DNA from: Candidatus Latescibacterota bacterium
Lineage (GTDB): Bacteria > Latescibacterota > UBA2968
DNA: 64,000 bases
Assembly: GCA_022823725.1 (NCBI GenBank)
Contig: JAJEHL010000017.1
Span: forward strand, 124,001-188,000
Reading direction: 5' to 3'
Under the pieces are notes generated by a model that saw nothing but the letters and a program-made list of their open reading frames with translations, was not told where the DNA came from and did not search any database. Positions 14,457 through 19,282 of this stretch are shown here, in pieces (the stretch's first letter is position 1; each line of letters opens with the position of its first letter). A program made the translations under genes and the position numbers.

Positions 14457-16292
14457 CTACCGCGCAGGCTGTAAACTGCTCTGTGTGGGATATGATTCGA
14501 GGATTGCTTCGATCTCTTGTTGAAAACGTTCAAGAGGTTCGGCAACCTGATGGCGAAATTCTTCGCGTATCAATCCGCAGTATTCCTGAGCCGCCTTCAA
14601 CATCACCTCGGCGTTGTGTTGCAAAGTGCGATAATCATCCTGAAAATGATCAATCCGCCCGTGCAAAGCGTGCATCAACTTGCTCGCGTAATCCCCGACG
14701 CTCACCTCTTTATATCCCTCGCTAAATCGCTTCAGGTGATCCAGCGCCTCATCCAAAAATGTCTGCACATCATCGACTTGCAGAGCGTCGCGCGTGGTGA
14801 GGATCAAATGACGGCCATGAATGGACATGCGTATGCCATCGCCAAAATCTCGGGGATGGTGTACGAGCATATGGGCCATAAATTTCCAGAACGTCCACCG
14901 ATAAGTTCCCACCACACCTTGATGCCAAAAAGAGCGCAATCCCGCCCTGAGTTCTGTCCAACCAATTGGCATTGATGGAATCGGTCTGCGCGCGCGGTGT
15001 GCATAGTGCGTACGGCAACGTTCAAAGAAAATCTCTGGACTGTTCAGCGTTTCCACGACCTTGCGATGACGCGCCAGCAGTTCGTCGGGATCAATGAGGG
15101 GCACATAACTCAACTCCCGACTGAAAATACCCGAATCACCCGTATATTTTACATCTTCACGCAGGCGCCCCAACCGCTTGTAGCGCTTGAAGTCGGGCGT
15201 GTCTCGCAGCACGCCCAAAACCCCCACCATAGCCACCGGAATACCCGCTTCTCTAATAAACGCAATCATGCGGTCGGCAATATCATCTGGATCTGTATCC
15301 AATCCCATGATAAAACCAGCCTGAACTTCCATGCCATAGTCTTGCAGAATCTTCACTTTGTCCAGCAAAGGCGTATCACCCTGCAAATTCTTTTGCGCGC
15401 CCATAAACTTCAGGCTCTCTTCCACTGGCGATTCAATCCCCGCAAAAATTTTATCAAATCCAGCGAGGTGCATCGCTTCTAACAAAGCGGGATCATCACT
15501 CACGCGAATGCTGGCCTGTGTAAATAACTGGAAAGGATATCCACGCTCTCTTTGCCAGGGCACCACCTCTTCTTCCAGCGTTTCTCGAATCTCTTCGCGA
15601 TTGCCCACAAAATTGTCATCCACCGCCATAACCGAACCGCGCCAGCCTCTATCGTAAAGCGCGTCCAGTTCTTGAATCACACGGCTACTATTTTTCAAAC
15701 GCGTTATCTTGCCGTAAAGCGCGGGGATATTGCAAAATGTACAACTTTCCGGACACCCCCTCGTAATCTGAATCACCATCACAGTATAATCGTCAAAATT
15801 GATCAGATCCCAATTCGGTAGCGGTGTAGTTGTGAGACTTTGAAATTCACCTCGCCGATCAATGTACTCTCGCCCCCCATGGTAGGGTTCGGTCACCAAT
15901 CGATTAACCACATCCATAAAACCATTTTCAGCCTCGCCCAAATAAAAGACCGCATCGCCCTCAATATCTTCGCAATACTGCGTGGGCAGCGGACCGCCAT
16001 TGAGCACGGGCACGCCTGCAACATTGCACTGAGCAATAATCTCTTCGAGAGAATGCCAGTGAATAATCATCGACGATGTAATCACAATATCCGCCCAATC
16101 CAGATCTTCATCTGTCAGTGGATGCACATTCACATCCACCACGCGCAAACTGTAGTCATCGGGCATCATACCGGCAATTGTCAACAACCCCAAAGGCGGA
16201 AAAGCAGACTTCTTTCCGATCAACCTCAAAGCCTCATCAAAACTCCAGAACGTCACCGGATTCTTTGGATATACAAGCAACGCGTTGGGCAT
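14457..16292 (-). CDS. B12-binding radical SAM protein with DUF4070-like C-terminus
   Basis: 611 residues. Residues 1-140 form a cobalamin-binding Rossmann domain (FPPLGLLTIAG, ADIVITSSMIIH, VLNGGPLP) without the DxHxxG ligand, as is usual in class B enzymes. The radical SAM motif is C180-x3-C184-x2-C187 (GCPESCTFC), followed by VDDNFVGN and FAGIESP. The region after about 430 resembles DUF4070. The HpnP hopanoid C2-methylase belongs to this group, and the opening FWSFDEALRLIGKKSAFPP is shared with it, but the group is broad and the substrate here is unknown. The last 150 residues are helical and variable. The start has GAAAGGA upstream. It is monocistronic, divergent from the serpin gene. 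Confidence 0.85.
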   Translation of the reverse strand: MPNALLVYPKNPVTFWSFDEALRLIGKKSAFPPLGLLTIAGMMPDDYSLRVVDVNVHPLTDEDLDWADIVITSSMIIHWHSLEEIIAQCNVAGVPVLNGGPLPTQYCEDIEGDAVFYLGEAENGFMDVVNRLVTEPYHGGREYIDRRGEFQSLTTTPLPNWDLINFDDYTVMVIQITRGCPESCTFCNIPALYGKITRLKNSSRVIQELDALYDRGWRGSVMAVDDNFVGNREEIRETLEEEVVPWQRERGYPFQLFTQASIRVSDDPALLEAMHLAGFDKIFAGIESPVEESLKFMGAQKNLQGDTPLLDKVKILQDYGMEVQAGFIMGLDTDPDDIADRMIAFIREAGIPVAMVGVLGVLRDTPDFKRYKRLGRLREDVKYTGDSGIFSRELSYVPLIDPDELLARHRKVVETLNSPEIFFERCRTHYAHRARRPIPSMPIGWTELRAGLRSFWHQGVVGTYRWTFWKFMAHMLVHHPRDFGDGIRMSIHGRHLILTTRDALQVDDVQTFLDEALDHLKRFSEGYKEVSVGDYASKLMHALHGRIDHFQDDYRTLQHNAEVMLKAAQEYCGLIREEFRHQVAEPLERFQQEIEAILESYPTQSSLQPAR

Positions 16293-16507: not shown

Positions 16508-17803
16508 ATGAAAATGATACAAAAGCCAACCAACCGTTTGCTACCTGCCATAATACTATCAATCTCACTACTCGGATGCAGTCAGGTATCACCACCCACG
16601 GCCCCTGAGACACAGGAAGTGCGATCAGAAAAGCCGCGAGTAACCGTACCTCTGGCAACAGATTCAGAGCTAACAGACCTGGTGCGTGGAAACAACGCCT
16701 TTGCCTTTGGCCTGTATCAAAAGTTGCGCGAAGAAGAAAGTGGAAACCTGTTTTATTCGCCCTACAGCATCTCGCTGGCACTTGCGATGACCTATGCCGG
16801 CGCCAGGGACGAAACCGAACGCCAGATGTCAAACGCACTACACTTCACCCTGTCCCAGGACAAGTTGCACCCCGCGTTCAACGCCCTCGACCTCCAGCTC
16901 GCCTCTCGCGGCGAAGGAAGCAGTGGCCAGGACGGCAAGGGATTTCGATTGAACATCGCCAATGCCATCTGGGGACAGCATGGCTATGCCTTCCTGCAGA
17001 ACTTTCTGGACAAACTGGCGGAAAATTACGGCGCTGGGATGAGAATCGCAAACTTCATTGAAGCGCCTGAAGACTCGCGCGTCACAATCAACGATTGGGT
17101 CGCCCAGCAGACCGAAGAGAAAATCCAAGACCTGATACCTTCCGGCGCCATTAACCCCTTGACTCGTTTAGTCCTGACAAACGCCATCTATTTCAACGCG
17201 GCGTGGCTCTCCCCCTTCGACGAAAAATCTACTGCTGCGGGCGACTTCCACTTGCTCACTGGCAACAGCATCAAAGTACCCATGATGCGACAGACCGAAT
17301 CATTCGGCTATGCGAGGGACACGGGATATCAAGCTGTCGAATTGCTCTACGACGGCAGTGAGATATCCATGGTCATCCTGCTTCCCGACAAAGGCACTTT
17401 TGATACGTTCGAAAAGTCGCTAAACGCCGAACTCATCAGTCAGATATCGAAAGACCTGAGACGCCAGCGCATAGACCTCACCATGCCCTCATTCGAGTTT
17501 GAAGCGCAATTCAAGCTGGGTGCAACCCTCAAGAAGATGGGAATGTCCGATGCCTTTGACCCGCAATTAGCGGACTTCTCGGGCATGGATGGAACAAAAG
17601 GCCTGTCCATTTCGGACGTCTTTCACAAGGCGTTTGTCCTCGTCAATGAGAATGGCACAGAAGCCGCTGCTGCTACTGGTGTAGTCATAGGGGTTACATC
17701 CCTCCCTCCCAGAGTCGCGGTCGATCGGCCATTCATCTTTCTCATCCGAGACATAGCGACCAAGACCACCCTGTTTGTCGGGCGAGTAATGGACCCGAGA
17801 TAA
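16508..17803 (+). CDS. Serpin-family protease inhibitor, lipoprotein
   Basis: 431 residues. The signal peptide ends in a lipobox (SLLGC, Cys24), so it is probably a membrane-anchored lipoprotein facing the periplasm or outside. Serpin core: NLFYSPYSISLALAMTYAGA (about 78), LTNAIYFNAAWLSPF (about 220), LPDKGTF and LTMPSFEFE. The hinge GTEAAAATG (383-391) is of the inhibitory type, rich in small residues. The C-terminal signature DRPFIFLIRD is followed by TLFVGRVMDP. Counting from the hinge as in antitrypsin puts the scissile bond near T397-S398. It follows a clear GGAGG-type ribosome site (AAGGAGG at about 16498). The two PhyH genes follow 17 bases later, perhaps by operon. Confidence 0.93.
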   Translation: MKMIQKPTNRLLPAIILSISLLGCSQVSPPTAPETQEVRSEKPRVTVPLATDSELTDLVRGNNAFAFGLYQKLREEESGNLFYSPYSISLALAMTYAGARDETERQMSNALHFTLSQDKLHPAFNALDLQLASRGEGSSGQDGKGFRLNIANAIWGQHGYAFLQNFLDKLAENYGAGMRIANFIEAPEDSRVTINDWVAQQTEEKIQDLIPSGAINPLTRLVLTNAIYFNAAWLSPFDEKSTAAGDFHLLTGNSIKVPMMRQTESFGYARDTGYQAVELLYDGSEISMVILLPDKGTFDTFEKSLNAELISQISKDLRRQRIDLTMPSFEFEAQFKLGATLKKMGMSDAFDPQLADFSGMDGTKGLSISDVFHKAFVLVNENGTEAAAATGVVIGVTSLPPRVAVDRPFIFLIRDIATKTTLFVGRVMDPR

Positions 17804-17820
17804 TACAAGGATATCACAAC

Positions 17821-18570
17821 ATGATCACAGAAGAAGACCTCTGGTATTTCAAAACCACTGGATTTTACAAAGTCCGCGAAACCCTGCCCGGCGACCTTGT
17901 CGATCGTCTAAATGAAGTCACTTCCCATCAGATTGCAAAGATGCGCGAACCCATTGTTTGGGAAGAAAAAGAAGCGCGCGAACCGAAAAATGTTCGCCGT
18001 CTCTCAAAAATTTTCTTGCGAGACCCCGTCTATTTTAAAGCCGCATCTCACCCCATCATCCTCAACGCCCTCGAAGGCATCATCGGTCCAAACATCGAGG
18101 TGCTCACCAACAAACACAACCACGTCATGGTGCGCCCATCCGGGTCTTATCCCGTCCCCTGGCACGCCGGTGAAGAACCTTATGACCACACCCTCATCAC
18201 CGGCTTGATCTACCTCGAAGAATCAACCGTTGAAAACGGCTGTGTACGCATCGTACCCGGCAGCCACAACCGGCCATTTCTCAACCCGCGCCGACCACAA
18301 AAACAAAGAGACAATTTTTACGACAGCGACAACTATTACCGCGCAGTGCCAATCCCCATGCCGCGCGGAGGCGTCCTCCTCTTTAACGACTGCTGTTATC
18401 ACGGCTCTGACACAAATCATTCCGATCATTCTCGCCGCAGCATGACAGTTGCTTATCGCGCCCACGACGCCCACGACGTGATCAAAGACGACCCGGAAAA
18501 AGTTCTCGTACGCGGCGAAAAAGTCTATACGGGACACCCACACCCCTATTCGCTCCCCATTCAGGAGTAG
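17821..18570 (+). CDS. Phytanoyl-CoA dioxygenase (PhyH)-family protein with HxG metal motif
   Basis: 249 residues, a double-stranded beta-helix Fe(II)/2-oxoglutarate oxygenase of the PhyH family. The first metal motif reads H115-A116-G117 (PVPWHAGEEPYD), where the family normally has HxD. The distal His (H194, CCYHGSD) and the 2-oxoglutarate-binding Arg region (SRRSMTVAYR) are present. NGCVRIVPGSH is the typical core strand. Loss of the carboxylate occurs in Fe/2OG halogenases, but also in large uncharacterised HGG-type PhyH subgroups; Glu118 might also substitute. The tandem downstream paralogue has HRD at the aligned position with no gap. Substrate is unknown. Confidence 0.85.
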   Translation: MITEEDLWYFKTTGFYKVRETLPGDLVDRLNEVTSHQIAKMREPIVWEEKEAREPKNVRRLSKIFLRDPVYFKAASHPIILNALEGIIGPNIEVLTNKHNHVMVRPSGSYPVPWHAGEEPYDHTLITGLIYLEESTVENGCVRIVPGSHNRPFLNPRRPQKQRDNFYDSDNYYRAVPIPMPRGGVLLFNDCCYHGSDTNHSDHSRRSMTVAYRAHDAHDVIKDDPEKVLVRGEKVYTGHPHPYSLPIQE

Positions 18571-18574
18571 GACA

Positions 18575-19282
18575 ATGCCCTCACTCACCCTGCGACAAAT
18601 TCAGCTCTTCCGAAACAACGGTTTTCTCTGTTTTCCAGACCGTCTGCCAGAAGAAATGGTTGAAAACCTGAAGACCGCTATTATGGAAGATATTGACCGC
18701 GAAATCGAACCCATCGTACGCAATAAAAATGGCCATGCCGTGCGTATCTCTGCCCTCATAGACCGCGCGCCGATCTTCCGAGAAGCAGTCACGCATCCAT
18801 ACGCACTCGACCCACTCGAATCGCTTCTGGGACCCAATATCGAAATCCTCACCAATCGCCACAACCACGCCACCTTACGCACGGCAGAGGACAACAAAGG
18901 CGCGTATCTTCATCGCGATGTCAGGCAGTGGACGCGCAACATCTACACCATCATCTTTTACCTCGAAGAAACCACCCTCGAAAATGGATGCACCCGCATT
19001 GTACCCGGATCGCATCACTTCCCCGGCGTCTCCACATCTATTCACGATGCAGACTGGGCAAGCGATGTCCTCGGTCAAGCACTCCCCGTACCCATGCCCG
19101 CAGGTGGGATGCTCGCAATCGACAGCATGGTCGTCCACGGCGCAGGCGAAAACCATACCGACGACACGCGCATGAGCATGACAGTTGGCTATCACAGCGT
19201 CGATGAACTCATGGACATTCCCAACCCCAAACGCCTGCTCGTGCGAGGAGAAGGACTCTATAACGGGAATGATCAAACGTAG
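18575..19282 (+). CDS. Phytanoyl-CoA dioxygenase (PhyH)-family oxygenase
   Basis: 235 residues. It has a complete Fe(II)/2-oxoglutarate facial triad: H113-R-D115 (YLHRDVRQW), the distal His in MVVHGAGENH, and Arg in TRMSMTVGYH for 2-oxoglutarate. The core strand NGCTRIVPGSH and the segment GPNIEILTNRHNH match the upstream paralogue closely, so the pair arose by duplication. It starts 4 bases after the previous stop, clearly one operon. Phytanoyl-CoA itself is unlikely to be the substrate; such bacterial proteins hydroxylate varied small molecules. The neighbouring sulfatase suggests catabolism of sulfated or organic substrates, but this is inference. Confidence 0.9.
   Translation: MPSLTLRQIQLFRNNGFLCFPDRLPEEMVENLKTAIMEDIDREIEPIVRNKNGHAVRISALIDRAPIFREAVTHPYALDPLESLLGPNIEILTNRHNHATLRTAEDNKGAYLHRDVRQWTRNIYTIIFYLEETTLENGCTRIVPGSHHFPGVSTSIHDADWASDVLGQALPVPMPAGGMLAIDSMVVHGAGENHTDDTRMSMTVGYHSVDELMDIPNPKRLLVRGEGLYNGNDQT

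Follow-up and report, generated by a model that had tools for sequence, protein, structure and literature searches.

Locus and metal site

The window analyzed here, a 64,000-nucleotide stretch of a Candidatus Latescibacterota genome, carries two adjacent forward-strand genes of the PhyH family, here called PhyH1 and PhyH2. PhyH1 (positions 17821 to 18570) is a stop-free open reading frame of 249 amino acids, which we annotate as a PhyH-family Fe/2-oxoglutarate (2OG) oxygenase with a predicted two-His (HxG) metal site. An hmmscan search returned PF05721 (PhyH) as its sole Pfam match, at 87.1 bits against a cut-off of 22, and hence no match to the AspH family PF05118 (Asp_Arg_Hydrox). PhyH2 (18575 to 19282) follows after 4 bp, also belongs to the PhyH family by Pfam profile match, and at 38% identity is the nearest relative of PhyH1 within the genome. 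Upstream lie a gene on the reverse strand for a B12-binding radical SAM protein with DUF4070 (14457 to 16292), a divergent neighbor that accompanies the PhyH1-PhyH2 pair in both genus g1 and family f2, and, between it and PhyH1, a forward-strand serpin gene (16508 to 17803). In the genus, 17 bp separate this bacterial serpin gene from PhyH1 downstream of it, and a serpin is unusual in an oxygenase operon. It was found at the locus in the closest relatives only and was absent in the other relatives examined, so the serpin is probably outside the PhyH1 pathway.

A reading of this DNA from its sequence only had described the pair as an HxG protein (H115-A-G117) next to a normal HxD paralogue (H113-R-D115), and translation, a codon check, and an alignment that needs no gap between the metal His and the LEE strand all confirm this. 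At the metal motif PhyH1 reads W-H115-A-G117-E118-E, with H115 to E118 at 18163 to 18174 (H115, cac, 18163 to 18165; G117, ggt, 18169 to 18171; E118, gaa, 18172 to 18174), so that Gly replaces Asp and an invariant Glu stands at +3 from the metal His, versus L-H113-R-D115-V in PhyH2 (H113-R-D115, 18911 to 18919; H113, 18911 to 18913; D115, 18917 to 18919). The typical HxD/E...H facial triad is absent from PhyH1. Its distal metal His, H194 (18400 to 18402), and R205 (18433 to 18435), which we take from family knowledge to bind the 2OG carboxylate, are retained in the alignment and invariant among orthologues, as had been claimed. That reading was correct on the HxG, the His, and the Arg of the metal site but overlooked Asp190 (18388 to 18390), four residues before His194 (FND-CCYH), whose invariance in PhyH1 is new in this analysis. 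The position is Asp in 30 of 30 matched sequences; the equivalent residue of PhyH2 is Ser (19124 to 19126), and Ser or Gly in the 17 rows read.

Conservation, selection, and distribution

WHxGE was found in every PhyH1 orthologue whose motif was read (about 30 proteins, 57 to 98% identical), a set drawn from Latescibacterota plus three Poribacteria-labeled metagenome-assembled genomes (MAGs). H115, G117, E118, H194, and R205 were all invariant across set A1, comprising 15 orthologues 62 to 96% identical to the window protein, and the relatives of PhyH2 had HRD in 29 of 29 cases. Comparison of the window copy with its relatives gave dN/dS values of 0.07 to 0.15 for PhyH1 and 0.10 to 0.15 for PhyH2, and by this measure PhyH1 is under strong purifying selection. 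Given the invariance of HxGE, a dN/dS of about 0.1, and the retained His and Arg residues, the HxG of PhyH1 is neither an error nor the product of decay; the Gly has become fixed and is maintained by selection.

Searches at the genus, family, order, and class levels found PhyH1 orthologues. Across 84,980 species genomes scanned, they occurred only in Latescibacterota-type MAGs, some of which carry a Gemmatimonadota label, and in the three labeled Poribacteria; other groups yielded more distant PhyH hits only, and a search of viral contigs found no relatives. The close relatives are Latescibacterota MAGs, some of them probably sponge-derived.

These data bear on the possibility that PhyH1 is a pseudoenzyme or a regulatory partner of PhyH2. 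Such a role would fit the missing ligand and the tight tandem arrangement, 4 bp from an active-looking PhyH2 and kept in two families, but is at odds with strong purifying selection and with the invariance of both His ligands, the 2OG Arg, and Asp190. The two genes also occur singly: PhyH1 without a PhyH2 orthologue in G027, G033, G037, G042, and G044, among which G037 is a single contig, and PhyH2 without PhyH1 in G021, G022, G029, and G045, which counts against an obligate partner or regulator. We therefore regard this role as quite improbable, and the earlier suggestion of a decayed regulator is contradicted by the selection data together with the genomes that hold PhyH1 in the absence of PhyH2.

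Origin of the ligand loss

PhyH is reported to outnumber all other domain families in Poribacteria, mostly with unknown function (PMC3909097), and is likewise expanded in the host genome, where 5.3 Mb hold at least 154 PhyH matches; the finding on PhyH1 bears on this expansion. When the PhyH proteins of the genome were aligned, 147 could be scored at the HxD position, comprising 118 with HxD/E and 29 without that acid, the latter made up of 21 HxG proteins including PhyH1 and a remainder with S, N, A, or L. With about 20 further HxG proteins in the same genome, mostly LHGG, PhyH1 could have been an ordinary member of a large HGG-type PhyH group, the home that the sequence-only reading had offered among others. 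However, a FastTree phylogeny of 164 proteins placed the remaining non-HxD proteins in one region and PhyH1 as sister to the HxD protein PhyH2 with full support, and the HGG-type proteins differ from PhyH1 in their flanking motifs. Forcing PhyH1 and the sampled HGG-type proteins into one clade cost 112 log-likelihood units and was rejected (approximately unbiased [AU] test, p = 7.6e-6) on a smaller tree under a mixture model, with the HGG-type rows sampled. HGG-type membership thus has next to no chance of being correct. Because PhyH1 is sister to an HxD protein and the one-clade constraint fails, its Asp was most likely lost independently of the HGG-type group, from a WHxD background.

The other 28 scored non-HxD proteins of the genome form the HGG-type group, with an acidic residue four or five positions before the distal His. 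One PhyH protein, L097 (G000:C35:235838), has WHRG in surroundings that resemble WHxD, together with Glu at distal His -4. It branches basally in the HGG-type clade of the FastTree phylogeny and is a possible intermediate. Another, L114 (G000:C45:221603), is an HxD protein nested within the HGG-type clade that retains Glu at distal His -4, meaning that the ligand was regained or that the row is misplaced.

Structure model and the role of Glu118

An AlphaFold2 model of PhyH1 built from 41 sequences (mean pLDDT of 86.5, pTM of 0.85) predicts a confident PhyH-like fold whose nearest structures are hydroxylases and oxidative cyclases; the closest PDB folds were EvdO1, human PhyH, the H11 proline hydroxylase, GriE, and SnoK/SnoN. 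We set aside H215, D216, H218, and D219, all invariant in PhyH1, as substitute metal ligands, because in a profile alignment the motif is partly shared with an HxD enzyme, human PhyH (...SADCHYID).

A more direct substitute would be Glu118, which could bend back to ligate the iron in a shifted triad (H-x-x-E...H) and so preserve ordinary hydroxylase chemistry. Its invariance in PhyH1, at a position occupied by V, I, M, S, A, or N in PhyH2, is compatible with this, as is the model, in which G117-E118 lie in coil just past the end of the strand. Yet acids at +3 also stand alongside an intact Asp, both in EvdO2 (WHQDEAY) and in L090 of the same genome (WHQDEIY), and we know of no HxxE Fe/2OG enzyme. 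SyrB2 has an acid at +3 (WHQAD) as well but uses chloride at the third site (PMC2767507). Since such acids are found beside an intact Asp or a chloride site, +3 is not normally a ligand position, and we consider coordination by Glu118 unlikely.

The residue at distal His -4

If neither a protein carboxylate nor a halide takes the vacant position in PhyH1, water might. In human AspH the iron is held by two His residues only, and D721, at H725 -4, hydrogen bonds to a water (W1) that takes the place of the missing ligand; the D721A variant has substantially reduced activity, and no halogenation was observed (PMC13168262, PMC6817910). AspH is a hydroxylase with an HXG...H motif (PMC10947486), and PhyH1 has this AspH-like two-His arrangement, HxG...H with an acid at distal His -4, in the form of the invariant Asp190 and His194. 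Replacement of the Asp ligand by Gly leaves some activity in FIH (PMC10947486) but abolishes both reactions in P4H (PMC2767507), so a two-His site does not function in every setting, which counts against reading PhyH1 as a two-His hydroxylase.

In this genome, the position four before the distal His is acidic in 22 of the 29 scored non-HxD PhyH proteins versus 6 of the 118 HxD proteins, and the remaining seven non-HxD proteins had Asp at -5. The corresponding Fisher p of 5e-15 counts related proteins and not independent events, and an independent-pairs test found three pairs of changes on the tree only, leaving it no power. Few independent losses therefore underlie the correlation, a point against the AspH-like reading, as is the halogenase HctB, in which Glu223 lies at His227 -4 and is said to be unique to HctB among reported halogenases (PMC6218459). 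For the latter reason we dropped the idea that an acid at -4 bars a protein from being a halogenase. SyrB2 and CytC3 have Ser there, as read through a comparison with L194. An acid at -4 thus accompanies two-His sites and favors water over halide without proving it.

Searches for halogenases also led to a conserved family of HxA type (WHQASTF) found in other bacteria (L194 and L195 to L206), closest in the PDB to SyrB2 (4e-38) and, at 175 bits, below the NCBIfam chlorinating-enzyme cut-off of 226. Glu stands at distal His -4 in every row whose distal motif was read, and these sequences may represent a new family of two-His oxygenases or halogenases.

Across PhyH1, the HGG-type proteins, the L194-type HxA family, AspH, and HctB, loss of the Fe/2OG Asp may have been accompanied repeatedly by an acid at distal His -4. 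We tentatively suggest that many PhyH proteins called inactive or halogenase-like from their motif are active two-His oxygenases in which a carboxylate holds a water, and that the residue at -4 could serve as a guide to water or halide; this generalization is somewhat more doubtful than not.

Genomic context and the case for a halogenase

Mining for Fe/2OG halogenases has relied on HxG/A as a signature (PMC11186838, PMC12871659), and PhyH1 has that HxG...H motif. A halogenase would place chloride or bromide in the vacant site and pass it to the substrate, a chemistry that would suit halide-rich seawater and sponge habitats, and neither the acid at +3, shared with SyrB2, nor that at -4, shared with HctB as Glu (PMC6218459), is foreign to such enzymes. 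Against this, PhyH1 scored 27.7 bits with the NCBIfam chlorinating-enzyme model TIGR01762, whose cut-off is 226.3, and the HxD paralogue PhyH2 scored higher (39.6). There was no Fe/2OG halogenase among the top 50 PDB folds for the PhyH1 model, and the residue at -4 is Asp, not Ser as in SyrB2 and CytC3. No chlorinating-enzyme match at E <= 1e-30 was found in the same genome or close relatives, and no authentic SyrB2-type enzyme above the cut-off among relatives, with L194 as the one hit below threshold.

A survey of the neighbors of close homologues, as had been proposed, turned up catabolic genes in the scanned loci. Beyond genus g1 and family f2, PhyH1 has no adjoining PhyH2 and lies near genes for an M19 dipeptidase, enolase-superfamily proteins, glycoside hydrolases, or other seemingly catabolic proteins; Gfo/Idh/MocA genes are further neighbors. 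From these annotations the neighborhood looks catabolic and not like a natural-product locus, and no natural-product machinery (nonribosomal peptide synthetase, polyketide synthase, or carrier protein) was seen among the scanned neighbors, of which a subset of genes was annotated. Together with the low TIGR01762 score, the folds, and the Asp at -4, this leaves a halogenase improbable, and it is not supported as the leading idea. The statement that HxG is the hallmark of halogenases was too strong, as AspH is an HXG...H hydroxylase in which no halogenation was observed (PMC6817910, PMC10947486, PMC13168262), though several chemistries had rightly been left open for PhyH1.

A putative two-His, AspH-like hydroxylase

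From the features carried by the sequences themselves, namely, the substitution, its conservation, purifying selection, its independence from the HGG-type group, and Asp190 where the HxD sister has Ser, together with the PhyH-like fold of the model, we infer that PhyH1 may be an active PhyH oxygenase with two His ligands, in which Asp190 holds a water as in AspH, acting as a catabolic hydroxylase, a proposal to which we give about an even chance. The Asp ligand would have been lost once, in the ancestor of PhyH1 and from a WHxD-type background, with Gly taking its place. Fe(II) would be bound through H115 and H194 alone, and a water would fill the vacant iron position, held by Asp190 as Asp721 holds W1 in human AspH. 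PhyH1 would then decarboxylate 2OG to yield a ferryl species capable of hydroxylation or another oxidation of a small substrate in a catabolic pathway, and the invariant Glu118 would more likely serve in substrate binding or in the second sphere.

With its plausible AspH-like substitute for the lost ligand, an HxG enzyme as conserved as this one suggests that the motif alone overcalls halogenases, and it offers another residue worth inspecting. In the tandem, one sister combines HxG with Asp190 and the other HxD with Ser, in effect a natural swap experiment at exactly the ligand and the proposed compensating position.

Comparison with known systems

Human AspH shares with PhyH1 the two His ligands, the HxG, the Asp at distal His -4, and the 2OG Arg, but belongs to the Asp_Arg_Hydrox family and acts on a protein substrate, and we claim no homology behind the likeness beyond the DSBH fold. 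The HxD enzymes PhyH2, human PhyH, EctD, and EvdO1/EvdO2 share the family, fold, and remaining active-site residues of PhyH1, whereas they keep the carboxylate where PhyH1 has Gly, and PhyH1 has Asp190 where PhyH2 has Ser. The HGG-type PhyH proteins of Latescibacterota, represented by the 28 scored in this genome, likewise lack the carboxylate ligand and carry an acid at distal His -4 or -5, but form a separate clade with motifs of their own and an independent loss. SyrB2/CytC3-type halogenases share the HxA/G...H two-His signature, and SyrB2 also the acid at +3; they differ in the Ser at distal His -4, and PhyH1 lies far below the TIGR01762 cut-off and outside any natural-product context in the scanned neighbors. 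The HctB halogenase domain resembles PhyH1 in its two-His site and in its acid (Glu223) at distal His -4, a likeness taken from its published description, but differs in acting on carrier-bound substrates (PMC6218459).
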